DNA from: Deferrisoma camini S3R1
GTDB lineage: Bacteria; Desulfobacterota; Deferrisomatia; Deferrisomatales; Deferrisomataceae
Direction of reading: 5' to 3'
Assembly: GCF_000526155.1 (NCBI RefSeq)
Contig: NZ_JAFN01000001.1
Location: 268,824 to 332,823, forward strand
Length of the DNA: 64,000 nucleotides
How positions within the stretch are numbered: the stretch's first letter is position 1; each line of letters starts with the position of its first letter. Shown here in pieces: positions 38,424 through 63,456 of the stretch. A program made the position numbers and the translations under genes. The notes beneath the pieces were generated by a model, which ran no database searches, had not been told where the DNA came from, and worked only from the letters and a program-made list of their open reading frames with translations.

Positions 38424-38909
38424 CTACTTTTTCTTGGACGGGGCCTTGGCGAAGGCGCCCTTGTCCACCTTGTCGCCGTGGCAGATGGCGCAGAACTTGC
38501 CCAGCTCGCTGCCCTTGGCCACGGTGCCCCTCAGGTACTTGTAGTTGGGGTTCGAGGGGTGGGGGTTGTGGCAGCTGGTGCACCCCAGGGTGCCGTCCTT
38601 GCGGAGGAGATCGGCCGGCACCTTCACCTTCTTGGGCTTCATGCCCACGGGGTGGGTCTGGGCCAGGTGGATCGGGATGATACCCTCGTCCTCGTTGTGG
38701 CAGCCGAGGCACAGGGCGGCGTCGTCCGCGGCGTTCTTGCCGGTGGCAGGGTTCTTCTCCGCCGTATTGGGGGCCACGGCCAGGATCGCCCGGCCCTTGG
38801 CGTAGTGGATGGAGTGGCACTCCACGCAGTTCGGGTCGTGGGGACCGTAGGCCCAGGCAGCCGGAGCGGCCAGAACCACGGCGACAGCGGCGACGAGCAG
38901 CTTTCTCAT
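38424..38909 (-). CDS. Periplasmic tetraheme cytochrome c (doubled-CXXCH type)
   Basis: A 161-aa protein with a signal peptide (MRKLLVAAVAVVLAAPAAWA) and four CXXCH sites: CVECH, CLGCH, CTSCH and CAICH. Distal His are available in HDPNCVECHSIH, THPVG and HNPHPSNP. It resembles the doubled-CXXCH cytochromes and would carry electrons in the periplasm. GAGGAG precedes the ATG. Monocistronic, with its own terminator. A possible soluble partner of the large cytochrome locus 11 kb away. Confidence 0.92.
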   Translation of the reverse strand: MRKLLVAAVAVVLAAPAAWAYGPHDPNCVECHSIHYAKGRAILAVAPNTAEKNPATGKNAADDAALCLGCHNEDEGIIPIHLAQTHPVGMKPKKVKVPADLLRKDGTLGCTSCHNPHPSNPNYKYLRGTVAKGSELGKFCAICHGDKVDKGAFAKAPSKKK

Positions 38910-39229
38910 GGCTTCTCCTCCTTTTGTGGGGATCGCGGCAGGCCCCATGGAAACGAACCACACGGAACACGCCCCCCAGGGCGGCCGGTACGCTACCCGA
39001 TCGATTCCCGAGGTGTCAAGCGAGAAAAGGCCTCCACCGAGGCGTCCTACGAAAACGCAGGCCCGAGGCTTCGGCCGCCTCGTCCCCAAGCCGCCCGTGC
39101 GATTGCCGACCCGCGTGACCACCCAGGTCCGGCCCCCTCCCGAAATCCGGCCGCCGCCTTTCGAGCAGGTGATGGAGCGGGCCTCTCTGTTTTCCTGTGG
39201 GCTTTCATGGACTTCGACTTGTCCGTCGC
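38910..39229. other. Intergenic region without recognised features
   Basis: Divergent spacer between the tetraheme cytochrome and the 123-aa membrane protein. GC-rich open frames here have no protein-like character. The promoter of the cytochrome should lie in 38925-39050, but I see no clear hexamers. Composition turns A/T-rich after about 39190. Confidence 0.4.
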
Positions 39230-49192: not shown

Positions 49193-49269
49193 CGGGACGT
49201 GGCGCAGTCTGGTAGCGCGTCTGCTTCGGGAGCAGAAGGTCGCTGGTTCGAATCCAGTCGTCCCGACCA
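49193..49269 (+). tRNA. tRNA-Pro (anticodon CGG)
   Basis: A complete cloverleaf of 77 nt with encoded CCA. The acceptor stem CGGGACG/CGTCCCG (49193-49199 / 49259-49265) is perfect, the anticodon arm TCTGC-TTCGGGA-GCAGA gives CGG, and the T arm CTGG-TTCGAAT-CCAG is canonical. Confidence 0.97.
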
Positions 49270-49350: not shown

Positions 49351-50691
49351 ATGAGAACGCTCCTGGCCGTCGTGTGTCTGGCTGTCGCCTGCTGGTCGCC
49401 CGCCCGGGCCGGGCCGGTGTCGTACCGCCTGGTGGAGCCCTCCGATCCGGCCCACGACCTGCTGCCCAAGACCTGCCGGGTGTGCCACAAGGACGAGAAC
49501 TTCCGGTTCTTCGTGGTGGTGTCGCCCGACGACGAGGGGTTGGAGGCGGCGCGCTCCCGGCTGGAGGCCGGCGCCCCCGCCGCCGTGGCCGAGCGGCCCA
49601 AGAACCCCCACACCGGTATCGCCTGCCTGTTCTGCCACCTCCAGGACCCCAACCAAACCCCGCCCGAGGCCATGACCTTCCGCACGCTGGACGGCGGCGC
49701 GGTGGGCCGCGGCGAGGTTGCGTCGGCCTGCGGCCTGTGCCACCCGGAGGCTGCCGTGCGCCACCCCACCGTGCTGGCCGAGGCCGCGGACGCGACGGCG
49801 GACTTCGAATCCGCCGGCCTGCCCTTGGTGGACGGGGAGGCCACCTGCGCCACCTGCCACGACATGCACGAACAGGACGTGGGGCCGGCCGTGGTGCGGA
49901 AGGCCTACCTCGTCTTCGCCGCCAAGAGCCGGGCGAGCTTCGTCCACGGCAACCGGGCCGGCTGCCGGGCCTGCCACCCGGGCGAGCCCGAGCCCGAAAC
50001 GGAGGTGGTGTTCCTGGACCCCGACGCCACGGCCCGGTGCGTGCGGTGCCACACCGGCGGCCACGAGGAGATCCACCCCGTGGGGGTGGCGTCGTCCGAG
50101 CGCACCTTTCCCATGGACTTCCAGGACTTCCCGCTGGACGACAAGGGGCGGCTGACCTGCTCCACGTGCCACGACGAAGTGTGCGGCGGGGACATCGACC
50201 CCAAGAACCCCCGGTTCCTCCGGGGCGGCCCCTACGTGACCCCCACCGACTTCTGCTACCGGTGCCATCCCCGGGCCGGGGAGGGGGCCCTGAACCCCCA
50301 CGACCAGGTCACCGACGACGGCCGGCTGGTGAGCACGAGCTGCGTGTTCTGCCACCGCCGCCGCCCCGGCGAGGAGGGGCCGGGAACCCTCGAGTTCCTG
50401 CACTCGCCGGTGGAGCTGTGCATGGGGTGCCACGACCCCGGCTCCCACCCCACCGTCAACCACCTGGTGGAGATGCCCGAGCCCATGCTCAAGAAGCTGC
50501 GGGCGTACGAGGAGCGTCACCGGGTGCGGCTGCCCCTCCATGAGGACCAGGTGGTGTGCACCACCTGCCACAATCCCCACGAGAAGGGGGCGGTGAAGGG
50601 CGAGGCCGCCCTGGGGGCCGGGGAGGAGAAGGGGTGGCGGGTGCCCAGCTTCGCCGAGCTGTGTACCCCGTGCCACGCACGGTACGACTGA
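49351..50691 (+). CDS. Exported 12-heme cytochrome c
   Basis: A 446-aa protein with a signal peptide (MRTLLAVVCLAVACWSPARA) and 12 CXXCH heme sites (CRVCH, CLFCH, CGLCH, CATCH, CRACH, CVRCH, CSTCH, CYRCH, CVFCH, CMGCH, CTTCH, CTPCH), about one per 37 residues. Several sites have the doubled-CXXCH form CHDMH/CHNPH. No lipobox or membrane anchor, so it is periplasmic or secreted. The ATG at 49351 gives a clean signal peptide. It precedes the TonB/cytochrome run on the same strand. Likely a role in electron transfer to or across the outer membrane. Confidence 0.93.
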   Translation: MRTLLAVVCLAVACWSPARAGPVSYRLVEPSDPAHDLLPKTCRVCHKDENFRFFVVVSPDDEGLEAARSRLEAGAPAAVAERPKNPHTGIACLFCHLQDPNQTPPEAMTFRTLDGGAVGRGEVASACGLCHPEAAVRHPTVLAEAADATADFESAGLPLVDGEATCATCHDMHEQDVGPAVVRKAYLVFAAKSRASFVHGNRAGCRACHPGEPEPETEVVFLDPDATARCVRCHTGGHEEIHPVGVASSERTFPMDFQDFPLDDKGRLTCSTCHDEVCGGDIDPKNPRFLRGGPYVTPTDFCYRCHPRAGEGALNPHDQVTDDGRLVSTSCVFCHRRRPGEEGPGTLEFLHSPVELCMGCHDPGSHPTVNHLVEMPEPMLKKLRAYEERHRVRLPLHEDQVVCTTCHNPHEKGAVKGEAALGAGEEKGWRVPSFAELCTPCHARYD

Positions 50692-50695
50692 AAGA

Positions 50696-50926
50696 GGCTA
50701 GGCGGCTAGGCGGCTAGGCGGCTGGGCGGCTGGGCGGGGACACCTGCGAGGGTAAGCCCCCCGGGGCTGGGGCCTGCGGGAGCGGCGTGCCCGCCGCGAT
50801 CCGGGCCGGAGGCCCGCCAGGAGAGGTGTCGCGGCCTGGAGGCCGCTCCCACAGGCTGGCCCGGACGGTGACGCTGGAATCCCGAAGATTTTCAGCCGCC
50901 TCGCTGCCAAGCCGCCCAGCCGTCTC
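50696..50926. repeat. Inverted octamer tracts enclosing a REP-like inverted pair
   Basis: Five octamers GGCTAGGC/GGCTGGGC (50696-50735) and four octamers GCCGCCTC, GCTGCCAA, GCCGCCCA, GCCGTCTC (50895-50926) face each other. Between them are two REP-like units in inverted orientation: CCTGCGGGAGCGGC..GCCGCGAT (50773-50800) and the complement of CCTGTGGGAGCGGC..GCCGCGACA (50827-50855). The GTGGGAGCGGC head and small GC stem are those of GTRG-type REP sequences of pseudomonads and xanthomonads. The octamers end 1 bp before the GAGAGGAGAG ribosome site of exbB. Confidence 0.8.
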
Positions 50927-50944
50927 GAGAGGAGAGATCCTTAC

Positions 50945-51607
50945 ATGTGGGAACTGTTCCAAAAAGGCGGACCGACCATGTGGGTGCTCGTCGCCCTGTC
51001 GGTGGCGGGGCTCGCCGTGATCGTGGAGCGGCTGCTCGTGCTGTACCGGGCCCGGACCGACACCGAGGCGTTCACGGCGCGGATCGCGGCGGCGCTGGAG
51101 GCGCAGCGGTACGAGGAGGCCCTCGAGATGGCCCGGCGGGGCACGGGGGCCATGGCCCGGATCCTGGCCGCGGGCCTCGAGCGGATCCGGCGGGGCCGGA
51201 CCGAGGTGGAGAAGGCGATCGAGGCCCGGGGGAACCTGGAGGTGTCCAAGCTGGAGCGGGGGCTGGTGTTCCTTCAGGCCGTGGCCAAGACGGCTCCGCT
51301 GGTGGGGTTCTTCGGAACGGTCTCCGGCATGATCAAGGCGTTCGAGGCCATGGGCCGGGCCGGGCTGGGCAACCCCGCCAACGTGGCCCTGGGCATCTCC
51401 GAGGCCCTGATCACCACGGCCGCCGGCCTGGCGGTGGCGATCCCGGCCTTCTTCTGTCACGCCCTGTTCGTGGGCAAGGTGAACCGGTTCGTGATGGAGC
51501 TGGAGGAAGGGTCGATCCGGTTCCTCGAGGCGCTGGAGGAGGCCGAGGAGCGGCAGGCCAAGAGCCTGGCCCGCTACGAGATCGGAGGGGAGTACCTTGA
51601 GATTTAA
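50945..51607 (+). CDS. exbB: ExbB/TolQ/MotA-family proton channel protein
   Basis: A 220-aa inner-membrane protein with three helices (residues about 12-32, 115-140, 155-180). The signature APLVGFFGTVSGMIKAFEAM (114-133) and the helix VALGISEALITTAAGLAVAIP (conserved Thr/Gly for proton passage) define ExbB/TolQ. With ExbD it converts proton motive force into TonB movement. GGAGAG precedes the ATG. It is first of exbB-exbD-tonB, which runs directly into the cytochrome genes. Confidence 0.93.
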   Translation: MWELFQKGGPTMWVLVALSVAGLAVIVERLLVLYRARTDTEAFTARIAAALEAQRYEEALEMARRGTGAMARILAAGLERIRRGRTEVEKAIEARGNLEVSKLERGLVFLQAVAKTAPLVGFFGTVSGMIKAFEAMGRAGLGNPANVALGISEALITTAAGLAVAIPAFFCHALFVGKVNRFVMELEEGSIRFLEALEEAEERQAKSLARYEIGGEYLEI

Positions 51608-52013
51608 GCGCCGTCTCCCCCCGGACGACGAGGGCGTCCCCATGGCCTCCATGGCCGACATCGCGTTCCTGCTGATCATCTTCTTCATGCTGACCACGGT
51701 GTTCAGCGTGGACCGGGGGCTCCTCATCGAGCTGCCCGAGACCGAGGTGGGGGAGCCGGTGGAGGTGCGGGAGATGGTGATCACGATCCCGGCCGAGGGG
51801 CCGGTGCACCTGGACGGCGAGCCGGTGGAGCTCCAGGACCTGGGGCCGCGGGTCAAGGAGGCCCGCCGCCGGAACCCCCGACGACCCGTGGTGGTCCGGA
51901 GCGACCGGCGGGTACCCTACGGCCGGGTGGCGGACGTGATGGACGAGCTGATCCAGGCCGGCGTCACCGACGTGGCGCTGCCCACGGTGCCCGAGAAGGG
52001 GGACGGTGGGTGA
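51597..52013 (+). CDS. exbD: ExbD/TolR-family protein
   Basis: A 138-aa protein with a TTG start inside the exbB end (11-bp overlap, AGGGGAG upstream). One N-terminal membrane helix holds the essential Asp in PMASMADIAFLLIIFFMLTT; the periplasmic domain (VVVRSDRRVPYGRVADVMDELIQAGV) is typical. It pairs with ExbB. The stop overlaps the tonB start as GTGA. Confidence 0.93.
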   Translation: MRFKRRLPPDDEGVPMASMADIAFLLIIFFMLTTVFSVDRGLLIELPETEVGEPVEVREMVITIPAEGPVHLDGEPVELQDLGPRVKEARRRNPRRPVVVRSDRRVPYGRVADVMDELIQAGVTDVALPTVPEKGDGG

Positions 52014-52924
52014 GGCACGGGTCGGGCGCCGATCCCCGGGACGCCCGGCTGCACCGGTTCGGGATCGCCCTGGGGCTGGTGCTGGCGCTGGGGGTGCACG
52101 CCCTGCTGCTGTGGGGGCCCGATGTGTCGTACCGGCCCGTGCTCGAGAGGGCTCGGATCCGCCGGGTCATGCGGGTCCGGCCCTACGTGCCGCCTCCGCC
52201 CCGGCCCGAGCCCCCGCCCAGGCCGGGCACGGGGGCGGCCAAGCCCGCACCGGCCCCGCGGCCCGCGCCGACGCCGGCGCGGGCCGCCCCGGCGCCCGCG
52301 GCGTCCCTGCCGGCGCCCGCCCCTGGGCCGCCGGCAGGGGTGCAGCCCCGGCCGGGCCTTCCCGAGCCCCAGGTCCGACGGCCCGGGGCTCCGGTGGCCG
52401 AGAGCCGGGCCGAGCCCCGGCCCCCGGCTCCGCCGCGGCCGGCGCAGGTGGCGCCCGAGCCCCAGCCGGACGAGTGGTCCGCCGTGCTGGCCGAGCTGGA
52501 GGCCCGGCGCAGGGCCCTGGGCGCGGACCAGGGGGCGGCATCCGGGGAGCAGGAGGCCGTGGGAGCGGGCCCGGGCGGTGCCGGGGCCGGCCCGGGGGAG
52601 GAGGGATACCTGGATCCCCGCATCCGGGTCACCGTGGTCTCGTATCCGCCCACCTCCATCGAGGAGCTTCACCCCCCCATCTCGTACCCGGACCTGCGGT
52701 TCCACCGCCGGGAGCTGCAGAAGGGGATCTGCCGGGTGTGGTACCGGGTGTGGACCGACCGGACGGGACGGATCGTGAAGACCCAGCTCAAGGCGCCGGC
52801 CAGCCGGGAGGAACAGGAACTCTATGCCCCGTTCGTGGACGCGGTGGTGAAGAGTGTGGAGTCGTGGCCGTTCGAACGCCGTGAGGCGGAGATCCATGTG
52901 GACGTTCTGTTCGAGATCGAGTAG
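52010..52924 (+). CDS. tonB: TonB-family energy transducer
   Basis: A 304-aa protein with one N-terminal membrane helix (IALGLVLALGVHALLLWG), a long Pro/Ala/Arg-rich spacer to span the periplasm (residues about 55-150) and a C-terminal TonB-like domain (YRVWTDRTGRIVKTQLKAPA then VVKSVESWPF). The GTG start is set by the GTGA overlap with exbD. It transmits energy to an outer-membrane receptor, but none is encoded in the window. The next cytochrome gene starts within its last 29 bp, tying the systems together. Confidence 0.9.
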   Translation: MRHGSGADPRDARLHRFGIALGLVLALGVHALLLWGPDVSYRPVLERARIRRVMRVRPYVPPPPRPEPPPRPGTGAAKPAPAPRPAPTPARAAPAPAASLPAPAPGPPAGVQPRPGLPEPQVRRPGAPVAESRAEPRPPAPPRPAQVAPEPQPDEWSAVLAELEARRRALGADQGAASGEQEAVGAGPGGAGAGPGEEGYLDPRIRVTVVSYPPTSIEELHPPISYPDLRFHRRELQKGICRVWYRVWTDRTGRIVKTQLKAPASREEQELYAPFVDAVVKSVESWPFERREAEIHVDVLFEIE

Positions 52925-53642
52925 GGCGTGGCGGCTTGGGGGCCTGGTGGGGATCGCGCTGGCGGCGTGGGCCGTGGCCGCGGTCGCCGCAGGGCCCGAC
53001 CCGTGCCTCGAGTGCCACGGCGTGCCCGGGTTCGGCACGGCCGGCCGGCCCCGGTGGGTCCTTCCCGAGGCCTACCGGGCCGGGGTCCACGGCCGCCTGG
53101 CCTGCGGCGACTGCCACAAGGGGGCCGAGGTGTTCCCCCACCCGGAGCCCAAGGTGCGCTGTGACCTGCCGTGTCACGTGCCCGACGCGAGCCACGCCGA
53201 GCTGGCGGCCTCCGAGGCCTCGGGTGCCCACGCACGGATCGCCGATCCCCCCTGCCTGGCGTGCCACGGCGGGGCGGCCAGGCCCGAGAACCCGGACGAT
53301 CCCTGCCTGGGGTGCCATGCAGAGGTGGAGGCCCCGGTGGTCAGATACCCCGACACGCCGGGCGCCTTCGGCGCCCGGGCCCACCGGGAGGCCGGGTCCC
53401 GGGCGCCGGGGTGCACGGACTGCCACGGGGTGCACGGGGTGGCCGCCGGCGAGGAGGCCCGGGCCGCCTGTGCCGCGGCGGCCTGCCACCCCGGCGCGCC
53501 CCCCGGGTTCTCGGCCCTGTTCGACCACCGCCGCGACCCGGCGGCGCCGGTGTGGGGAGGGGCGCGGCCCGCCCTGGCGTGGGCGGGGCTGGCCGTGGGT
53601 CTGGTGCTCGTCCTGCACGCCCTGGGAGGGAGAAGGCCGTGA
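52896..53642 (+). CDS. Multiheme cytochrome c with atypical heme sites and C-terminal anchor
   Basis: A 248-aa protein with an N-terminal membrane/signal segment (LVGIALAAWAVAAVAAG) and a C-terminal helix (LAWAGLAVGLVLVLHALG). It has five CXXCH sites (CLECH, CGDCH, CLACH, CLGCH, CTDCH) and two extended ones: CDLPCH (CX3CH) and CAAAACH (CX4CH), giving up to seven hemes. The ATG at 52896 lies in tonB with GGAG 6 nt upstream. It overlaps the cytochrome b gene by 4 bp, so it is the likely periplasmic partner that takes electrons from the quinol-oxidising subunit. Confidence 0.85.
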   Translation: MWTFCSRSSRAWRLGGLVGIALAAWAVAAVAAGPDPCLECHGVPGFGTAGRPRWVLPEAYRAGVHGRLACGDCHKGAEVFPHPEPKVRCDLPCHVPDASHAELAASEASGAHARIADPPCLACHGGAARPENPDDPCLGCHAEVEAPVVRYPDTPGAFGARAHREAGSRAPGCTDCHGVHGVAAGEEARAACAAAACHPGAPPGFSALFDHRRDPAAPVWGGARPALAWAGLAVGLVLVLHALGGRRP

Positions 53643-54568
53643 CCCCCCGCCCCCGCACCGTGGAGGTTCTCGACCCGGTGGACCGGTGGCTCCACCTGGG
53701 CGCCATCGCCGGCATGGCCGGGGCGCTGGCCACCGGCCCCGCCCTGGAGACCCCGGCCTTGGCGAAGATGCTCGGGCCCCTGGACCCCAGTTTGGTCCAC
53801 GGCGCCTCGGCCGCGGTGCTGGTGCTCGTGGCCGCCCTCCATGGGGTGCGGGTGTGCCTGGGGTGGCTCGAGGGAAGAAACCCCTGGGGGCTGCTGCCCC
53901 GGCCGGGGGACCTGGCGAGCCTGCTCCGGGCGCTCGCTCCGTTCGGGCCGCCGGAGCGGCGGGGCCGGTACTCCCACCGGGAGCGGTTGGCGTACCTGGG
54001 GTTCGCGGTGGTCGTGCCGGCGTTGCTGGTGACCGGCTGGGCCGAGGCCCACCCGACCTGGGCGGTCCGGTGGCTCGGCCCCGGCGGGCTGGTGGCGGCG
54101 GCGCGGGTCCACTCCGCCCTGGGGCTGGCCGCTCTCATCCCCCTGGGGTGGCACCTGTTCTTCGCGCTGCTGGCCCCGGAGAAGCTCCCCTGGAACCCCG
54201 CGTGGTTGACCGGCCGGGTACCCCTGACGCTTGCCGAACGGGCGTGGCCGGCCTGGGTCGAGGAGGCCGAAGCTCCGGAAGCCGTCGCAGAGGCGGCACC
54301 TCCCTCGGTGGAGGACCTCCTCGAGGCCGGAAACGCCGCGGCCCGGGCCCAGGACTGGGACGCGGCCGTGGCCGCCTACCGGGAGGCCCTGAGCCTGTAC
54401 CCGGGGTACTCCCAGGCCCTGTTCAACCTGGGCCTCGTGTGCTGGAAGGCCGGCCGCAAGGAGGAGTGCCGCGGGGCCCTGGGGCGGTTCCTGGAGCAGG
54501 ACCCGTTCAGCCCGGTGGCGCCGCGGGCCCGGGAGATCCTGGCCCGGCTGGAGGACGACCGTGGCTAG
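53639..54568 (+). CDS. Membrane cytochrome b561-like subunit fused to TPRs
   Basis: A 309-aa protein with four membrane helices in residues about 20-185. His in DRWLHLG, LVHGASAAV..ALHGVRV, YSHRERLAY and RVHSALGLAALIPLGWHLFF could bind two b hemes, as in formate dehydrogenase/hydrogenase cytochrome b subunits. The C-terminal 90 residues are soluble with two TPRs (AAYREALSLYPGYSQALFNLG). The GTG start overlaps the preceding cytochrome gene (GTGA). It is the probable quinone-interacting subunit; the TPR domain would recruit another component. This fusion is unusual. Confidence 0.8.
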   Translation: MTPRPRTVEVLDPVDRWLHLGAIAGMAGALATGPALETPALAKMLGPLDPSLVHGASAAVLVLVAALHGVRVCLGWLEGRNPWGLLPRPGDLASLLRALAPFGPPERRGRYSHRERLAYLGFAVVVPALLVTGWAEAHPTWAVRWLGPGGLVAAARVHSALGLAALIPLGWHLFFALLAPEKLPWNPAWLTGRVPLTLAERAWPAWVEEAEAPEAVAEAAPPSVEDLLEAGNAAARAQDWDAAVAAYREALSLYPGYSQALFNLGLVCWKAGRKEECRGALGRFLEQDPFSPVAPRAREILARLEDDRG

Positions 54569-55106
54569 CGGGTGGGTCCGACGGCTCGGTTCGGTGGTGG
54601 CCGTGGGGCTCCTGGCCGCCGCGGGGTGGGGATACGCGCGGCTTCCCGGGTCGGCCGGGCCGGCGGGGCCGCCTCCGAGGGCCGAGGTGCCGCGGCCCGA
54701 GCCGTTCCACGCGTACGACCGCGGCCGCCTGGCGGAGCCCGGTGGGTACTGCACCTCCTGCCACCCGGCCGCCGCCCATCTGCGGGATCCGGTCCTTCGC
54801 GCGTTCCGGAACCTGCACTGGGTGGGGCTGGACTGCGGGGTCTGCCACCTGGCCGGGCCCCGGCTCACGGTGCGGCGGTTCCCGGACCGGGGAAACCGGC
54901 TGTTTGCCGCACGAAGGACCCCGGAGGGGTGGCAGGCCGTGGACCGGCCGGGCGCGGGCGCCCGGTTCCGAGCCCAGGGGCTCGCCTGCCGGCAGTGCCA
55001 CCGCAGGGGCAGCCCGTGGCTGAACGGGCCCGGGCTGTTCGACGCCTACCGTCGCCGGCTCCTGGAGGACCTCGCGGTGCTGCGGCGGCTGGAGGGGGTG
55101 CGGTGA
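54561..55106 (+). CDS. Triheme cytochrome c, membrane-anchored or exported
   Basis: A 181-aa protein with an N-terminal hydrophobic segment (VVAVGLLAAAGWGYA) and three CXXCH sites: CTSCH, CGVCH and CRQCH. A Pro-rich linker follows the anchor. The GTG start at 54561 overlaps the cytochrome b stop by 8 bp, and its own stop overlaps the beta-propeller gene by 4 bp. Likely a relay between membrane and periplasm. Confidence 0.85.
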   Translation: MASGWVRRLGSVVAVGLLAAAGWGYARLPGSAGPAGPPPRAEVPRPEPFHAYDRGRLAEPGGYCTSCHPAAAHLRDPVLRAFRNLHWVGLDCGVCHLAGPRLTVRRFPDRGNRLFAARRTPEGWQAVDRPGAGARFRAQGLACRQCHRRGSPWLNGPGLFDAYRRRLLEDLAVLRRLEGVR

Positions 55107-55969
55107 GGGGCTCCGGAGGGGTGGGCAACGGTACGGGGGGATGGGGCGGGGCCGCGGTCCTGGTCCTCCTCCTGTGGGCCTGGGGGGCGTGGGCCGGGGG
55201 CCCCCGGCCGTTTCGGGTGCCCCTGCCCGCCATGAACCAGCCCCGGTCGTTCGCGGTGGACCGCGACGGGAGGGTGTGGTGGGTGGAGGACCTGTCGGGC
55301 CGGGTTCTGCGCGGCCGGCCGGGGGGGCGGGCGGCCGAGGTGCCGGGGGTGCCCCGGCCGGCCGCGGTGGCCGCGGCGCCGGAGGGCGCCGTGCTGGTCC
55401 TCCATTCCGGCGCCGGGGGGTTCCGGCTCGCCCTGTGGGCCGGGGGGGAGCGCCGGAGCGTTCCCCTGATCGCGGAGCCGCCCCTCGGCGATCCGGCGGG
55501 CATGGCCGCCCGGGACGGGATCGTCTGGGTGGTGGACCGTCGCCCCAGGCGGGTGGTGCTGTTCGCCTACGACGGCTCGGCCCTGGCGTGGACCGACCTG
55601 TCCGAGCGGGCCCGGGCCCCGTTCTCGGTGGCCCTGGGGCCGGCAGGCGAAGGATACGTGACCGACCCGGCCGGGCCGGCCGTGCTGGCGTTCAACCCGT
55701 CGGGCGCGTATCTGGGCACCCTCGACGTCGGCGGCACGGGCCTGACCCGCCCCACCGGCGTGACGGTGGACGGGAAGGGCCGGGTCTGGGTGTCGGACGG
55801 GGTGACGGGCGTGCTGGTGCTTCTGGACCCGGCGAGGGGCGGCACGACGGTGCGGGCGAACGGACGGGCGATCCGCTTCGCCGATCCGTTGCGCCTGCGG
55901 TGGCGGAAAAGAGTCTGGGTGCTCGACGCAGCACCGGGCCGGATGTGGACCGTGGAGGAACCGCCGTGA
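55103..55969 (+). CDS. Exported beta-propeller (NHL-like) protein
   Basis: A 288-aa protein with a signal peptide or anchor (AAVLVLLLWAWGAWAGG). The mature part has six or so repeats of the form SFAVDRDGRVWWVEDLSGRV, GVTVDGKGRVWVSDG, i.e. NHL/SMP-30-like propeller blades. No catalytic site or heme is seen. NHL proteins often accompany multiheme cytochromes in metal reducers, where they may scaffold the complex. GTGA overlaps at both ends place it in the same transcript. Confidence 0.8.
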   Translation: MRGSGGVGNGTGGWGGAAVLVLLLWAWGAWAGGPRPFRVPLPAMNQPRSFAVDRDGRVWWVEDLSGRVLRGRPGGRAAEVPGVPRPAAVAAAPEGAVLVLHSGAGGFRLALWAGGERRSVPLIAEPPLGDPAGMAARDGIVWVVDRRPRRVVLFAYDGSALAWTDLSERARAPFSVALGPAGEGYVTDPAGPAVLAFNPSGAYLGTLDVGGTGLTRPTGVTVDGKGRVWVSDGVTGVLVLLDPARGGTTVRANGRAIRFADPLRLRWRKRVWVLDAAPGRMWTVEEPP

Positions 55970-56175
55970 GCCGAAAATGGGAGTACGGGCAGATCTTCGT
56001 GCCCAACCCCGAGCCGTTCGGGGGGTTGCCCAAGGAGGCCCTCGACCTGGGTCGGGTCAAGCGGGCCGGGGAGGAGGGGTGGGAGCTGGTGACCACCATC
56101 CCCTACACCACCCCCCAGGGGGAGGTCCGCGGGGCCTTCTTCATCTTCAAGCGGGAGGCCCCGGCCGACGAATGA
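55966..56175 (+). CDS. DUF4177-like small protein
   Basis: A 69-aa soluble protein with KWEYGQIFV at the start and RVKRAGEEGWELVTTIPYTT, the GWELV core of DUF4177, ending FFIFKRE. DUF4177 proteins are small cytoplasmic proteins of unknown role. The GTG start and the TGA stop overlap both neighbours by 4 bp. It is odd to find it between two exported proteins. Confidence 0.75.
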   Translation: MSRKWEYGQIFVPNPEPFGGLPKEALDLGRVKRAGEEGWELVTTIPYTTPQGEVRGAFFIFKREAPADE

Positions 56176-58985
56176 TCTGGCTCGTGCTGCTCGGCCTCCT
56201 CCTGTGGTGCCCGCCGGCGCGGGCCGCGGCCGTGGACGACTGGCCCTGCGTGACCTGCCACCCCTCGCGGGACCGGGCCGCCTTCGACCTGCTGCGGGAG
56301 GACCGCACCGTGATCCTGGGGGACGAGGCGGCCCAGGAGCGGGTGTGCCGGTCCTGCCACAACGGGTCGGTGGTGGACAGCCGGCGCATCCTGGCCCGGG
56401 GCTCCCAGCACCCGTCCGGCGTGGCCGCGGCCCGGCCGCCCCCCGAGCCGTTCGCCCTGTACGGGGGCCGGATCGAGTGCGGCACCTGCCACTCCCCCCA
56501 CGCCGGGGGCGAAGCCGGCCGGCGCTGGCTCCGGGTGCTGCCCCGGGGAAACGAGCCCTGCGCGTCGTGTCACCCGGGCCGAGCCGACCGGCACCTGGGC
56601 ATGGAGTTGAGCCCGGAGGCGCGCGAGAGGATCTCGGCCCTGGGCGGCCGGACCGAGGGGGACACGGTGGTGTGCGCCACCTGCCACCGCCTCCACGGCG
56701 CCTCGGGCCGGGCCTTGCTGGTGGCGCCGTACGGGGACCGGGAGGACGGGCTGTGCCGGGTGTGCCACGCCCGGCTCCCGGCACCGCCCTCCCACCAGAA
56801 GGCGGGGTGCGGGTCGTGCCACCGGCCCCACCGGTCCGAGCCCCTCTTGGCCGAGGGGCGGCCGTGCCTGACGTGCCATCCCGACACCCAGACCCCGAGC
56901 GATCACCCGGCTGCGAGCCCCGTCTGCACCGACTGCCACGCCGTCCACAACCCGGTCCGACCCGAGGGAAGCCCCAAGGGCCTGCTCCGGATGCCCACCG
57001 ACCGGAACCTGCTGTGCGGATCGTGCCACGCGGCCGAAGGAGCCGGGCCCCACGGCCGGGCCGTGCCGGTGGCCGCGGATCCGAAGAGCCTGGCCAGGCG
57101 GGGCATGGGGCTTGATGCGGGGGGCAACCTGGTGTGCACCACGTGTCACCGGGCCCACGGGGCGGCGGTTGCCCCCCTGCTGGTGGGCAGCCCGGGGGTC
57201 CGGTGCCTGTACTGCCATCCCGGCCAGAACCCGTTCGTGCCCGCCAACACTGGGGCCCACCCCGTGGCCGTGCCCCTGCCCGGGGGCCGGGTGCTCGGAT
57301 GCTCCACCTGCCACGCGGCCCATCGGGCGAAGGCCGGTCCTGCGGACTGTCAGGGCTGCCACCCGATGGCCGAGGGGGGCCGCGGCCACGGCGGTCGGCC
57401 CGGGTGCGGCGCCTGCCACGACATCCACGGCACCGGTGCGCCCGCGGCCCGGTGCGCCGGGTGCCACGACGAGGGCCAGGTCCACCTGGGCGTCGCGTCG
57501 GAGGCCCGGCCGGGGCTGCCGGTGTTCGGGGGGACCGGCCGCCCGGCCCCCGAGGGGGAGGTGGGGTGCCCCACCTGCCACGACCCCCACCGGCCGGGGG
57601 CCCCGGTCCGCGGGGGGCAGAGGGCGTGCCTCGGGTGCCATCCGGACAAGCGCGAGGCGACCCGGGCCCCCCACGGGGGGGTATCGGGGTGTTTCTCGTG
57701 CCACCCGGGCCACGGGGACGAGGAGTCCCGGCCGGCAGAGGACCGGTGCCGGGCGTGCCACGGCCCGGACACGGTGAGCCTGGCGGCCCACACCCCGAAG
57801 GGAGCGCCGGCCTGGAAGGGCCTGGGGGAGCGGCTTCCCCTGTTCGACCGGGCCGGCCGGCGCAACCCCTTCGGGTTCATGACCTGCCCCACCTGCCACG
57901 ACGTGCACCGGCCCGACGGGTTCCGGATGGAACCCCGCGATCCCCCCCGGCTGTGTCTGACCTGCCACGGCGACAAGGCGTCGCTGCTGGGTAGCCCACA
58001 CGACCCCCGCTCGGGCGGGGCGGGGGCGGCCTGCGATGTGTGCCATCCCCAGCACTGCCGTGAGGGGGAGCCCCCCCTCTGGAGCCTGCGAGCCGAGGCC
58101 ACCGGCACCTGGAACGACCGGAAGTGCACCGGCTGCCACGGCCCTTCTTCGGGCGGGCCGTGGCCCCACACCGGCCCCCGGTCCCACCCCGTGGACGTGG
58201 TGGTGCCCGAGTCCATGGAGGCCGGCGACCTGCCCCTGTACGACCCCCTCGGCGGGCGGGTGGGGCGCGTGCTGGCCTGCACCACCTGCCACGACCTCCA
58301 CGGCGCGTGGAACCGGGAAGGCGAGCGGATCCCCTGGTTCCTGCGGATGCCGCCGGCCGACGGGGCCCTCTGCCAGCAGTGCCACCCCGCCGAGGCGGCG
58401 GTGCGGGGCACGGCCCACGACGTGCGCACGGACCCGCCCGACCCCCTGGGCCCCTGCGGACCCTGCCACCGCACCCACGGCGCGGTGGACCGGGCCCTGT
58501 GGGCCCTGGAGCCCGCGGCCGGGGACTACGCGCCGAACCGGCTGTGCCGGTCGTGCCACGGGCAGGAGGGGCCCCTGCCCGGGGAGCGGCCCCTCCTGCA
58601 GCACCACATGAAGGACGCCGAGCCCCTCCGGACGCCGCGGGGCACGATCTACCTCCAGCGGCCCATGCTCCTCACCGACACCTGGGCCCTCAAGACCGGG
58701 GAGGAGCCGCTGATTCCCTTGTACGACCGGCAGGGCAACGCCGGGCCCTCGGGGAACCTCCAGTGCGTCAGTTGCCACGACCCCCATCGGTGGAGCCCGT
58801 TCGGCAGCTTCGTGAAGCCGGGGTTCGGGGCCCTGGGGCCCAACGTGGTCACCCGGTTCCTGCGGCTGCGGGACCCCCAGCAGGCGGCTCGCAGCGTGTG
58901 TGCGGTGTGCCACCCAAAGGATGCGCCGGAGCGCTACCTCAAGTACCATCGGGCATGGACCGATGTGGGCGCGGAGTTTCGGTAG
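56172..58985 (+). CDS. Giant exported cytochrome c with 30 CXXCH motifs
   Basis: A 937-aa protein with a signal peptide (MIWLVLLGLLLWCPPARAAA) and 30 CXXCH sites, about one heme per 31 residues. Many are doubled-CXXCH units in which CXXCH is followed by a second His (CHRLH, CHRPH, CHAVH, CHRAH, CHDIH, CHDPH, CHDVH, CHDLH, CHRTH), giving the distal ligand. The motifs are spread over the full length with no other domain, and there is no lipobox or anchor. It overlaps the DUF4177 gene by ATGA. The pattern matches large outer-surface or nanowire-type cytochromes of metal reducers; direct function is inferred. Confidence 0.93.
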   Translation: MIWLVLLGLLLWCPPARAAAVDDWPCVTCHPSRDRAAFDLLREDRTVILGDEAAQERVCRSCHNGSVVDSRRILARGSQHPSGVAAARPPPEPFALYGGRIECGTCHSPHAGGEAGRRWLRVLPRGNEPCASCHPGRADRHLGMELSPEARERISALGGRTEGDTVVCATCHRLHGASGRALLVAPYGDREDGLCRVCHARLPAPPSHQKAGCGSCHRPHRSEPLLAEGRPCLTCHPDTQTPSDHPAASPVCTDCHAVHNPVRPEGSPKGLLRMPTDRNLLCGSCHAAEGAGPHGRAVPVAADPKSLARRGMGLDAGGNLVCTTCHRAHGAAVAPLLVGSPGVRCLYCHPGQNPFVPANTGAHPVAVPLPGGRVLGCSTCHAAHRAKAGPADCQGCHPMAEGGRGHGGRPGCGACHDIHGTGAPAARCAGCHDEGQVHLGVASEARPGLPVFGGTGRPAPEGEVGCPTCHDPHRPGAPVRGGQRACLGCHPDKREATRAPHGGVSGCFSCHPGHGDEESRPAEDRCRACHGPDTVSLAAHTPKGAPAWKGLGERLPLFDRAGRRNPFGFMTCPTCHDVHRPDGFRMEPRDPPRLCLTCHGDKASLLGSPHDPRSGGAGAACDVCHPQHCREGEPPLWSLRAEATGTWNDRKCTGCHGPSSGGPWPHTGPRSHPVDVVVPESMEAGDLPLYDPLGGRVGRVLACTTCHDLHGAWNREGERIPWFLRMPPADGALCQQCHPAEAAVRGTAHDVRTDPPDPLGPCGPCHRTHGAVDRALWALEPAAGDYAPNRLCRSCHGQEGPLPGERPLLQHHMKDAEPLRTPRGTIYLQRPMLLTDTWALKTGEEPLIPLYDRQGNAGPSGNLQCVSCHDPHRWSPFGSFVKPGFGALGPNVVTRFLRLRDPQQAARSVCAVCHPKDAPERYLKYHRAWTDVGAEFR

Positions 58986-58997
58986 GAAAGGATCGGG

Positions 58998-60281
58998 ATG
59001 GGCTGGATCGGATGGATCGTGTGGGTGGTGCTCGCGGCCACGGCCGCGGGGGCCGGGGACCTGGCCTCCCTCAAGGCCGACCTCACCGGGCCGGACGGAA
59101 ACGCCCGCCGGAAGGCGGCGGAGGCCCTGGGCGAGATGGGGGGGGCGGAGGCGGTGGACCTGCTGGCCGCCGCCTACCGGGCGGAGGCCGAGGACGCCTT
59201 CGGGGTCAAGGCGGCCTGCGCTGTGGCCCTGGGCCGCACGGGCCGGCCCGAGGCCGCCGGGCCCCTGGCCGAGATGCTCGGGGACCGGGACTACTGGGTG
59301 CGCCGCAAGGCGGTCGAGGCCCTGGAATCGATCCCCGGCCCGGAGGCGGAACGCGCCTTGGCCCGGGCCGTGGGCGACGACGACCCCCGGGTGCGGGCCG
59401 CGGCGCTGGAGGCGCTGGGCCGCCGGGGCGGAGCGACCGACCTCCTGCGCGCGGGGTTGGACGACGACGACCCCCGGGTGCGGGCCGCGGCGCTCTCGGC
59501 CCTGGTGCAGGCCGGGGTGCCCGACTCGGACCGGCTGCTGGCCGAGGCGCTGGGGGAGGAGTCGTGGAGGGTTCGGCTGCGGGCCGCCGCGCTGCTCGCG
59601 GCCCGGGGCGACGCCCGGGGCCGCGAGGTGTTGGCCGGGGCGGTGCGCCAGGGGCGCCACGCCGGCACCGCGGTGCGCGAGTGGAGCTGCCTGGGCGCCG
59701 AGGCGGTGCCCGACCTGGCCGCCCTGTGGGCCGACCCCGAGGTGGCCCCACCCGAGAAGGGCCGGATCCTGGAGGTGCTGGAGCGCCTCGACTGCCGCGC
59801 CTCGACCCGCTTCTTCCTGTCGTTGGCCACCGACCCGGGGGCAGCGGCCGGGGACCGGGTCCGGGCCGTGATGGTGCTGTTCGACCGCAGGGGCCGGCTG
59901 GGGGCTGGGGACGTCCGGGCCGTGGCGGGGCTCCTGGACGAACCCGACCCGAACCTCAAGGCCGTGGCGCTACAGATCCTGCTGGACCGGGGGGGGCCGG
60001 AGTTCCTGGCCCAGATCGCCCCCCTGGCCGAGCACCCCAACCCGGTGGTGCGCCACTTCGCCCTGCAGAACCTGGCGGCCCACGGCGGCCCCGAGCACGA
60101 GGCGGTGTTCGTGCGGGCCCTGCAGGACCCCAAGGCCACCAACGTGCGCCTGGCCATGGAGACGCTGGGCCGCATCGGATCCCCGGCCGCCATCCGCGCG
60201 CTGGAGCCGTTCCTCGGTCAGCGCAAGTACCGCCGCTACGCCCAGGCCGCCATCGACGCGATTCGGGAGCGGTCCCCATAG
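58998..60281 (+). CDS. Exported HEAT-repeat protein
   Basis: A 427-aa protein with a signal peptide (WIGWIVWVVLAATAAGAG) and about ten HEAT repeats, e.g. DPRVRAAALEALGRRGG and DDDDPRVRAAALSALVQAG. GGAT spacing of 12 bp after the 30-heme gene and an AAAGGA site place it in the same operon. HEAT repeats of this kind bind other proteins; it may scaffold or assemble the cytochromes in the periplasm. No catalytic residues are seen. Confidence 0.82.
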   Translation: MGWIGWIVWVVLAATAAGAGDLASLKADLTGPDGNARRKAAEALGEMGGAEAVDLLAAAYRAEAEDAFGVKAACAVALGRTGRPEAAGPLAEMLGDRDYWVRRKAVEALESIPGPEAERALARAVGDDDPRVRAAALEALGRRGGATDLLRAGLDDDDPRVRAAALSALVQAGVPDSDRLLAEALGEESWRVRLRAAALLAARGDARGREVLAGAVRQGRHAGTAVREWSCLGAEAVPDLAALWADPEVAPPEKGRILEVLERLDCRASTRFFLSLATDPGAAAGDRVRAVMVLFDRRGRLGAGDVRAVAGLLDEPDPNLKAVALQILLDRGGPEFLAQIAPLAEHPNPVVRHFALQNLAAHGGPEHEAVFVRALQDPKATNVRLAMETLGRIGSPAAIRALEPFLGQRKYRRYAQAAIDAIRERSP

Positions 60282-60351: not shown

Positions 60352-63300
60352 CTAGCCCGCGGCCTCCCTCACCTTGGCCCGGCCCATCAGGAGCGAGCCC
60401 ATCACCGGCACGATGCCCAGGGTCACCAGGGTGCTCACCAGCAAGCCCCCGATCACGGCGATGCCCAGGGGGTTCCACATCTCGTGCCCGGTCTGGCGCG
60501 ACAGGGCCATGGGCAGCATGCCGAACGCGGTGGTGAGCGTGGTCATGAGCACGGGCCGGAGCCGGGTGCGGCCCGCCCTCAGCAGGGCCTCCTTGAGCTC
60601 CAGGCCCCTGGCCCGGAGCTGGATGGCGTAGTCCACGAGCACGATCGCGTTGTTCACCACGATGCCCACCAGCATGATGATGCCGATGAAGCTCATGAGC
60701 GACAGCGGCGTGCCCGTGGCCGCCAGGCCCAGGAACGCGCCGGTCAGGGCGAACGGCACCGAGAAGAAGATCACGAACGGGACCACCAGGCTCTCGAACT
60801 GGGCCGCCATCACCATGAACACGAGGACCATGCCGAGGGCCAGGAGCTGAAGCAGGTCGCGGAAGGCATCGGCCTTCTCCTTGACGTCGCCGCCGAACCG
60901 CACCGTGATCCCCTCGGGCAGGTCCATGCCGGCCAGGACCTTCTCCAGATCGGCCGTGACCTCCCCCAGGCTCCGGCCCACCACGTCGGCCGACACCGAG
61001 ATCATGCGCTGCTGGTTCTTGCGGTCGATCTGCAGCGGGATCTCCCCCTCGGTGATCCGGGCCACGTCCTTCAGACGCACCATCCGGCCCGTGAGGGTCT
61101 TGAGCCGCAGGTCCTCCAGTTCGGCCCGGCCGGCCCGGTCCTGGGGCCGCAACCGTACGGTGATGTCGTAGTCGTCGCCGGCGTCCCGGAACTGGGTGTA
61201 GTCGGTGCCGAACACGGCCGTGCGCACGTCCCGGGCCAGCACGGCCAGGGGCAGGCCTAGCCGGCCCGCCTTCTCCCGGTCCACCTCCACCAGCCACTCG
61301 GTCTTCACGGGCTTGAGCGACCAGGAGGCGTCGCGCACCCCGGGCACCCGGCGCATCTTCTCCAGGATCGTGCCGGCCGTGGACCGCAGCCGCTCCCAGT
61401 CGTTGCCCAGCACCTCCACCACCAGGGGCTTGGCCCCGGCCCCGAAGAAGATCTTCTGGGCCGCCCCCACCGTGCGCACGCTGAGCTTCTCGATGTCGGG
61501 CACCTGGCGGTAGCGCCGCCGCAGGGCCTCGGCGATCTCGGTCACCGACCTCTGGCGCTCGGACCGGTCCACCAGCTTGGCCCCGATCCGCACCACCTGG
61601 TTGCCCTCCTCGAACCCCACGGCCGTGGCGATGCCCTGGCGGCTCTGGCCGGTCAGGGCGTACAGGGCCCGGACCTCGGGCACCTCTTCGTAGAAGATCT
61701 TCATGAGCCGCTCCACCACCCGGGTGGCCTCCTCGATGCGCACGTCCACGGGCAGCTCGGCGTTGACCTCGATCTCGCCGGTGTCGGTCTGGGGCATGAA
61801 CTCCGAGCCGGTGCGCCGGGCGGCGCCGACCCCCAGGGCCAGGACCCCGGCGGCCACCACCAGGGTCGCGGCCCGGTGCCGGAGCATCCAGCCGAGCAGC
61901 CCGGCATAGGCGCGCTCGAGGCCGTCGAGCACGGCCTCGGTGGCCCGGAACAGCGCGCCGGTGAGGCCCCGGCGGCCGGCCTGGGGCTTGAGCAGCTTGC
62001 TCGCGGCCATGGGGGTGAGGGTCAGGCTCACCAGCAGGCTCGCCAGCAGGGTCAGGGTCACCAGGAACCCGAGCTGCTTGAACAGGATGCCCGCGATGCC
62101 CCCCAGGAACACCAGGGGCAGGAACACCGCGATGGTGGTCAGGGTGGAGGCCGACACGGCCAGGCCCACCTCGGAGGCTCCGTCCACGGCCGCCCGGGCC
62201 GGGGAGGCCTCGCCCTCCTCCAGGTGGCGGGTGATGTTCTCCAGCACCACGATGGCGTTGTCCACCACCATGCCGATGGCGATGGTCAGGCTCATGATGC
62301 TGATCAGGTTCAGGGTGAACCCGAACAGGTACATGGCGAAGAAGGTCACGATCATCGAGAACGGGATCGTGAGCGCCACCACCAGGCTCGGCCGCAGCCG
62401 CCGCAGGAACACGAAGGTGACCACCACCACCAGGAGCCCGCCCAGGTACAGGCTGGACTTCAGGTTGTTCACCATGTTCTCGATGTCCTCGGCCGAGTCC
62501 ATGATGGTGCCCAGCTTCACGTCGGCCGGGAGGTTGCGCTCGATCTCGGGCAGCCGCCGCCGGATCTCGCGCACCACGTTCACGGTGTTGGCCCCGGACT
62601 GCTTCTGGATCATCAGCAGGATGCCGGTGCGGCCGTTGGTGAAGATCTCCTCGTACTTGTCCTTGAACGCGTCGTCCACCCGGGCCACGTCCCCCAGCCG
62701 CACTACCCGGCCCCGGCGCACGGCCACCGGCACGGCGGCCAGCTCCCGGGGCGACCGGAACCGGCCCGGCACCCGCACCGGCACGGCCCGCTTGCCGATC
62801 TTCACCTCGCCGGCCGGCATGTCCAGGTTCTCGCGCTTCAGGGCCTGCCCCAGGTCGTCCAGCGACAGCCCGTAGGCGGCGAGCCGGTCGTTGTCCACCT
62901 CGACCCGGATCTCCCGCTCGAGCCCGCCCCGGATGATCACCGCGCCCACGCCGGGGATGCGCTTCAGAACCGTTGCGATCTGCTTGTCCACGATCTGGTA
63001 CAGGGCCCGGTACGACTCGGTGGCCTCCACCGACAGGAACAGGATCGGGAAGTTGGCCGACGAGAACTTGAACAGCAGGGGGTTCTCGATGTCCTTGGGC
63101 AGGTAGAACTTCGCGATGTCGAGCTTCTCGCGCACGTCGTTGGCGGCCTCGCCCAGGTCCGAGCCCCACTTGAACGTGCAGGTCACCACCGAGAGGCTGT
63201 CCTTGGAGATCGAGGTGATCCGGTCCAGGTTCGACACGATGCTGAGCCGGTCCTCGATCACCTTGGTGACGTTCGACTCCACGTCCCGGGCGTTGGCCCC

Positions 63301-63456
63301 CGGGTAGTAGGTGATGACCGAGATGGCCGGCGGGTCGATCCGGGGCAGCAGGTCGATGTCGAGCCGGGGCAGGCTCCACAGGCCGAACAGCAGCAGGGCC
63401 AGCAGGCCCATGAGCACGGCCACGGGCCGCCGGACGGAAAGGGATGGCAGGTTCAT
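60352..63456 (-). CDS. RND-family (HAE1) inner-membrane efflux pump
   Basis: A 1034-aa proton-driven transporter with the duplicated plan of 12 helices and two large periplasmic loops. Motifs: LSVRRPVAVLMGLLAL at the start, GANARDVESNVTKVIED, SIMSLTIAIGMVVDNAIVVLENI (TM4, with the Asp for proton relay) and MLVGIVVNNAIVLVDYA (TM10, with Asn/Asp). GGIAGILFKQLGF and PMALSRQTGHEMWNPLG match the HAE1/AcrB branch rather than CusA. The adaptor gene ends 7 bp upstream. Substrate unknown (drugs, lipids or metabolites). Confidence 0.94.
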   Translation of the reverse strand: MNLPSLSVRRPVAVLMGLLALLLFGLWSLPRLDIDLLPRIDPPAISVITYYPGANARDVESNVTKVIEDRLSIVSNLDRITSISKDSLSVVTCTFKWGSDLGEAANDVREKLDIAKFYLPKDIENPLLFKFSSANFPILFLSVEATESYRALYQIVDKQIATVLKRIPGVGAVIIRGGLEREIRVEVDNDRLAAYGLSLDDLGQALKRENLDMPAGEVKIGKRAVPVRVPGRFRSPRELAAVPVAVRRGRVVRLGDVARVDDAFKDKYEEIFTNGRTGILLMIQKQSGANTVNVVREIRRRLPEIERNLPADVKLGTIMDSAEDIENMVNNLKSSLYLGGLLVVVVTFVFLRRLRPSLVVALTIPFSMIVTFFAMYLFGFTLNLISIMSLTIAIGMVVDNAIVVLENITRHLEEGEASPARAAVDGASEVGLAVSASTLTTIAVFLPLVFLGGIAGILFKQLGFLVTLTLLASLLVSLTLTPMAASKLLKPQAGRRGLTGALFRATEAVLDGLERAYAGLLGWMLRHRAATLVVAAGVLALGVGAARRTGSEFMPQTDTGEIEVNAELPVDVRIEEATRVVERLMKIFYEEVPEVRALYALTGQSRQGIATAVGFEEGNQVVRIGAKLVDRSERQRSVTEIAEALRRRYRQVPDIEKLSVRTVGAAQKIFFGAGAKPLVVEVLGNDWERLRSTAGTILEKMRRVPGVRDASWSLKPVKTEWLVEVDREKAGRLGLPLAVLARDVRTAVFGTDYTQFRDAGDDYDITVRLRPQDRAGRAELEDLRLKTLTGRMVRLKDVARITEGEIPLQIDRKNQQRMISVSADVVGRSLGEVTADLEKVLAGMDLPEGITVRFGGDVKEKADAFRDLLQLLALGMVLVFMVMAAQFESLVVPFVIFFSVPFALTGAFLGLAATGTPLSLMSFIGIIMLVGIVVNNAIVLVDYAIQLRARGLELKEALLRAGRTRLRPVLMTTLTTAFGMLPMALSRQTGHEMWNPLGIAVIGGLLVSTLVTLGIVPVMGSLLMGRAKVREAAG

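Follow-up and report, generated by a model that had tools for sequence, protein, structure and literature searches.

A conserved operon of Deferrisomatales combines a multiheme cytochrome chain with an ExbB-ExbD-TonB-like motor

Introduction

Extracellular electron transfer is usually viewed as a relay in which electrons run passively downhill, and TonB is usually viewed as a motor for nutrient receptors. The closest described systems to the locus reported here are Shewanella MtrCAB, the porin-cytochrome and Ext systems of Geobacter, and the Geobacter cytochromes CbcL, CbcBA and ImcH, which are quinol-linked membrane proteins feeding multiheme relays. In Deferribacter, a 19-gene multiheme cluster including a cytochrome b561 occurs in Fe(III) reducers, and the accessible part of its report (PMC13186404) mentions no TonB. 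A possibly related cytochrome cluster of Geoalkalibacter is presented without a TonB link in the accessible part of PMC12016550. Both clusters are likened to the present locus by their descriptions and not by their sequences.

In this study, we analyzed a stretch of 64,000 nucleotides (the window) from the genome (4.24 Mb, one contig) of Deferrisoma camini S3R1, a deep-branching and probably iron-reducing bacterium. Deferrisoma is a genus of the order Deferrisomatales and includes a described Fe(III) reducer, as cited in PMC10052568. The window contains a multiheme chain together with its own TonB motor in one conserved operon, a pairing which is not found in the open-access literature searched. 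The same open-access searches returned no matching Deferrisomatales cytochromes and no TonB-cytochrome-NHL cluster.

Results

Gene content and organization of the operon

The operon contains ten genes on the forward (+) strand, in the order c12, exbB, exbD, tonB, c5, b561-TPR, c3, NHL, DUF4177 and c30. The first gene, c12 (49351..50691), encodes an exported 12-heme c-type cytochrome of 446 aa with a signal peptide and 12 CXXCH motifs. It is followed by exbB (50945..51607), encoding a MotA/TolQ/ExbB proton-channel subunit of 220 aa (PF01618, E 9.5e-32), exbD (51597..52013), which starts with TTG and encodes an ExbD/TolR subunit of 138 aa (PF02472, E 1.4e-28), and a tonB-like gene (52010..52924), whose product of 304 aa has one transmembrane anchor, a Pro-rich linker and a predicted C-terminal TonB-type domain. 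Next come c5 (52896..53642), a membrane-anchored 7-heme cytochrome of 248 aa with five CXXCH motifs plus one CX3CH and one CX4CH, and a b561-type cytochrome b fused to C-terminal TPR repeats (53639..54568; 309 aa; PF01292, E 5.5e-8, and TPR families). The last four genes encode c3, an exported or membrane-anchored 3-heme cytochrome (54561..55106; 181 aa; 3 CXXCH), an exported NHL-type beta-propeller (55103..55969; 288 aa; PF01436, E 8e-10), a DUF4177-like small protein without signal peptide (55966..56175; 69 aa; PF13783, E 2e-4, below the cut-off) and c30, an exported 30-heme cytochrome of 937 aa with 30 CXXCH motifs in MtrA/DmsE-like repeats (56172..58985).

The preliminary description of this interval had listed the b561, NHL, DUF4177-like and HEAT-like genes, and all of them are present, the DUF4177 assignment lying below the Pfam cut-off and the HEAT assignment being based on that description and on the repeat pattern. 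Absent from it were exbB, exbD, the tonB-like gene and the fusion of b561 to TPR. It had also described 4-bp overlaps joining the genes from 51597 through 58985, which has to be corrected, since the joints include overlaps of 29 and 8 bp too. The overlaps are 11 bp between exbB and exbD, 4 bp between exbD and tonB, 29 bp between tonB and c5, 4 bp between c5 and b561, 8 bp between b561 and c3, and 4 bp at every joint thereafter up to c30. The overlaps tying exbD, tonB and c5 together are found in many operon genomes. The gap between c12 and exbB is 253 bp in the window (50692-50944). Of 11 relatives measured, eight have a gap of 12-33 bp and three have one of 99-188 bp. In the window this spacer carries short tandem repeats (ggcggcta/ggcggctg).

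A gene for an exported, accessory HEAT-type repeat protein (58998..60281, +; 427 aa) starts 12 bp downstream of c30. It adjoins the operon in G200, G151, G285, G265 and G223. We considered it as a core part and rejected it, as it is not beside the operon in family f2 or in the distant families. As for the surroundings, a tRNA-Pro (CGG) lies immediately upstream of c12 (49193-49269), and a gene that looks by eye like an RND-type efflux pump (60355-63456, -) is convergent with the end of the operon. A small exported cytochrome with 4 CXXCH motifs, whose start codon is uncertain, is encoded outside the operon (38427-39122, -).

Heme motifs and electron-transfer proteins

The recount of CXXCH motifs in the four exported proteins (12, 5 plus two atypical, 3 and 30) agreed exactly with the preliminary description. 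These numbers are far above the means of shuffled proteins, which are 0.08 (c12), 0.05 (c5), 0.005 (c3) and 0.25 (c30). Every heme motif of c12 is invariant across 13 sequences, and nearly all heme columns of c30 are invariant across 14. The CX3CH and CX4CH of c5 are invariant in ten sequences, which indicates that c5 is a 7-heme protein and brings the operon to about 52 c-hemes. The first heme motif of c3 is CX4CH in some relatives and is missing in two.

The b561-TPR protein has five invariant histidines (19, 54, 68, 158 and 172), and its family suggests quinol as the electron donor. The c5 protein has an N-terminal signal and a C-terminal transmembrane segment. In G021, G095 and G123 (family f2), c5 and b561 are fused as one protein, and in the related modules described below c3 is fused to b561 (once as c5-b561-c3), so c5, b561 and c3 likely form one complex.

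For c30, the closest solved relative in PDB is 6r2q_A, matched in four stretches (E 1.5e-21), which we take to be MtrA of MtrCAB. The list of solved structures labels this decaheme MtrA-like chain differently, as 'Cystathionine beta-synthase'. All 14 c30 members match TIGR03508, the window's c30 with 99 of 192 bits, which is below the cut-off of this DmsE family; thus c30 is MtrA-like with related repeats and is not a member of DmsE/MtrA. The AlphaFold model of c30 had a mean pLDDT of 37 and was discarded as useless. The c12 protein matches the Mtrc-MtrF domain with E 2e-12, a value that may reflect the common CXXCH motifs.

The locus has no gene for an outer-membrane protein or barrel, and there is no PF11854 match (MtrB/PioB-type porin) in the organism's own genome. 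This extends to the whole genome the earlier remark that an MtrB-type porin is absent, and it weakens the complete quinol-to-surface conduit proposed there, in which surface exposure of any of the cytochromes is putative. What stands of that proposal is that a b-type quinol module would hand electrons to multiheme relays, which fits the gene anatomy and the fusions in relatives. Besides, the genome and the order contain many further multiheme cytochromes, so this operon need not be the main conduit.

With no porin in sight, the proteins might instead form an ordinary periplasmic respiratory complex that passes electrons from quinol to a soluble acceptor or exchanges them within the periplasm, with nothing getting as far as the surface. 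The operon cytochromes indeed give weak matches to the periplasmic Hmc, Nrf and DmsE families. We regard such a complex as unlikely, however, because the 30 MtrA-like hemes and the TonB module point to the outer membrane, and because the extra cysteines of c12, c5, c3 and c30 form no CXXCK-type catalytic heme motif.

The ExbB-ExbD-TonB-like motor

In ExbB, the Thr of GTV and the Thr-Ala of both channel motifs are invariant, and so is the channel Asp of ExbD. Both proteins score under the NCBIfam equivalog cut-offs (exbB/tolQ and exbD/tolR). A histidine in the transmembrane segment is typical of TonB and TolA, and His30 in the transmembrane segment of the TonB-like protein is invariant. Pfam gave no match in any of the 13 members of this family. 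A search of its profile against PDB sequences returned Pro-rich chance matches only and was given up in favor of a fold search. In the AlphaFold model, most of residues 240-304, in the C-terminal domain, have pLDDT of about 80-96, and Foldseek places TonB C-terminal domains at the top of the PDB matches to this domain (probability up to 0.99). The E-values are modest (about 0.02) and concern one predicted domain.

To what does this motor belong? The operon encodes no TonB-dependent receptor. The window's own genome has six Plug-domain matches, and the operon TonB may share a receptor role there. The HMM searches, run on draft genomes that are 91-100% complete, found no Plug domain in 5 of the 15 operon genomes (G021, which is 100% complete, G244, G095, G123 and G060), and no match to the TonB-dependent receptor beta-barrel family in G021, G244, G095 and G123. 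The lack of a recognisable TonB-dependent receptor in these five genomes suggests that the motor serves the cytochrome system itself. The opposite view is that the motor serves TonB-dependent uptake of iron or vitamins in general and has no more than a promoter in common with the cytochrome genes. This view gains from the six receptors of the host, which need a motor. It seems quite improbable in face of the five receptor-less genomes and of the other ExbBD sets that the operon genomes also carry. In the ExbD tree, a single branch (support 99/99) separates all 12 operon copies from the remaining ExbDs of these genomes; this separate clade, always found in a cytochrome-operon context, argues against a general motor as well. 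In G095, a genome without detectable TonB-dependent receptors, a second ExbB-ExbD pair (locus L120), besides that of the operon, falls outside the TolR-like clade, indicating that non-receptor uses of ExbBD are not limited to the operon.

Another explanation is assimilatory, with, for example, ferric iron reduced at the outer membrane and then imported, TonB powering a putative channel. The sharing of one operon by redox proteins and TonB, and the reduction of Fe(III) by relatives, would suit it. We give it a slim chance, since the operon has no permease, ferrous transporter or receptor and about 52 hemes are far beyond the needs of uptake.

As to where TonB might act, a conserved hydrophobic stretch ('VSYRLVEPSD' in the window) directly follows the signal peptide of c12, and this is a candidate TonB-contact strand.

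Distribution of the operon

The b561-TPR gene was found in 11 of 12 Deferrisomatales genomes, and the twelfth (81% complete) carries the 12-heme gene in full length close to the end of a contig. Where contigs span the locus, these relatives keep the ten genes in one order with nearly identical heme numbers. The same ten-gene order is present in G203 and G027 of a distant family, with 28-37% identity for the cytochromes alignable by BLAST. In G022 and G060 of a third family the set is split, c12 to NHL being on one contig and DUF4177 plus c30 on another. In G022 (L066:3071-6757), c30 is broken into ORFs of 18 and 10 hemes, by a frameshift, an assembly error or a real split.

The DUF4177-like protein is the most conserved of the set (60-82% identity across families), and its profile matches exactly these 15 operon genomes among the 395 of the phylum sample. 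Matches to c12 over its full length (E below 1e-170) cover the same set of genomes, except that G176 is added and G244, with a contig that begins inside the operon, is missing. The NHL gene is conserved across operons. In the plasmid collection, the 12-heme protein had one weak partial match only, in Geoalkalibacter.

Related modules without a motor

The c12 profile also has matches ranking below the operon genomes, which form a wider family, and ten such loci were analyzed. Eight of them (L105-L110, L113 and L114), from other families of the phylum, contain a simpler module, which consists of a 6-7 heme c-type cytochrome, b561 fused to a 3-heme cytochrome, NHL, a 16-25 heme cytochrome and an 8-22 heme cytochrome. 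Homologous c5, b561, c3, NHL, c30-like and c12-like proteins are thus clustered in both types of locus. The simpler module differs in that c3 is mostly fused to b561, the heme numbers are other, and no exbB, exbD, tonB, DUF4177 or TPR was found in the eight loci. It follows that the core does not depend on the motor, and that the TonB operon represents one separate version of a more widespread multiheme module. In G240 and G195 (L106 and L107), the module adjoins a trio of a 9-heme cytochrome, a 440-aa protein that looks barrel-like by eye and a 7-heme cytochrome, and this neighborhood speaks further against a purely periplasmic complex.

Discussion

On balance, we lean towards one respiratory machine, in which a multiheme conduit oxidises quinol and has its own device for coupling to the proton motive force. 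In such a machine, b561 and the anchored 7-heme and 3-heme cytochromes would form an inner-membrane quinol:cytochrome c oxidoreductase. Electrons would then pass to the exported 30-heme cytochrome, which is MtrA-like and might be wire-like, and to the 12-heme cytochrome, with the NHL propeller as a possible scaffold, and would travel on towards the outer membrane and towards acceptors outside the cell, for example Fe(III). ExbB-ExbD-TonB may draw on the proton motive force to exert a push or a pull on some partner of the chain in the periplasm or outer membrane, in assembly, docking or gating, and this partner would not be a classical TonB-dependent receptor. Which way the electrons flow, which extracellular acceptor they reach and what TonB targets are our inferences. 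That the TonB motor acts directly on the multiheme chain, outside receptor-mediated transport, is a more tentative idea, which we hold as possible at somewhat less than even chances; it might dock or extend the 30-heme wire, or open a putative outer-membrane gate.

With both in one conserved operon, it can be tested directly whether proton motive force is invested by the cell in running or building an electron conduit. The operon also offers a TonB system without a recognised target, kept even where no receptor was found. Besides, the combination of DUF4177, the full-length 12-heme protein and the tonB family is a signature to locate the operon elsewhere.

Compared with known systems, the gene order, which the preliminary description did not recognise, matches no Geobacter cluster in the papers compared by keyword look-ups rather than by sequence, and the words TonB and NHL are both absent from the Geobacter Ext paper. 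The MtrA-type multiheme repeats of Shewanella MtrCAB and the Geobacter porin-cytochrome and Ext systems recur in c30, for which a role in trans-envelope electron flow is presumed. In contrast to MtrCAB and Ext, the operon lacks a porin, has 30 hemes in this protein instead of about 10, and includes both a quinol module and a TonB motor. Like CbcL, CbcBA and ImcH, its quinol-linked membrane cytochrome would feed multiheme relays, whereas b561-TPR and the separate anchored 7-heme and 3-heme subunits set it apart from them, by descriptions and not by sequence. With TonB-ExbB-ExbD systems it has in common the ExbB and ExbD families, the channel residues, the transmembrane histidine and the predicted TonB-type C-terminal fold, while it differs from the usual ones in being set in a cytochrome operon and kept in genomes without a recognised TonB-dependent receptor. 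In conclusion, the locus is a variant of multiheme electron-transfer systems, and it is the ExbB-ExbD-TonB set that makes it unusual.
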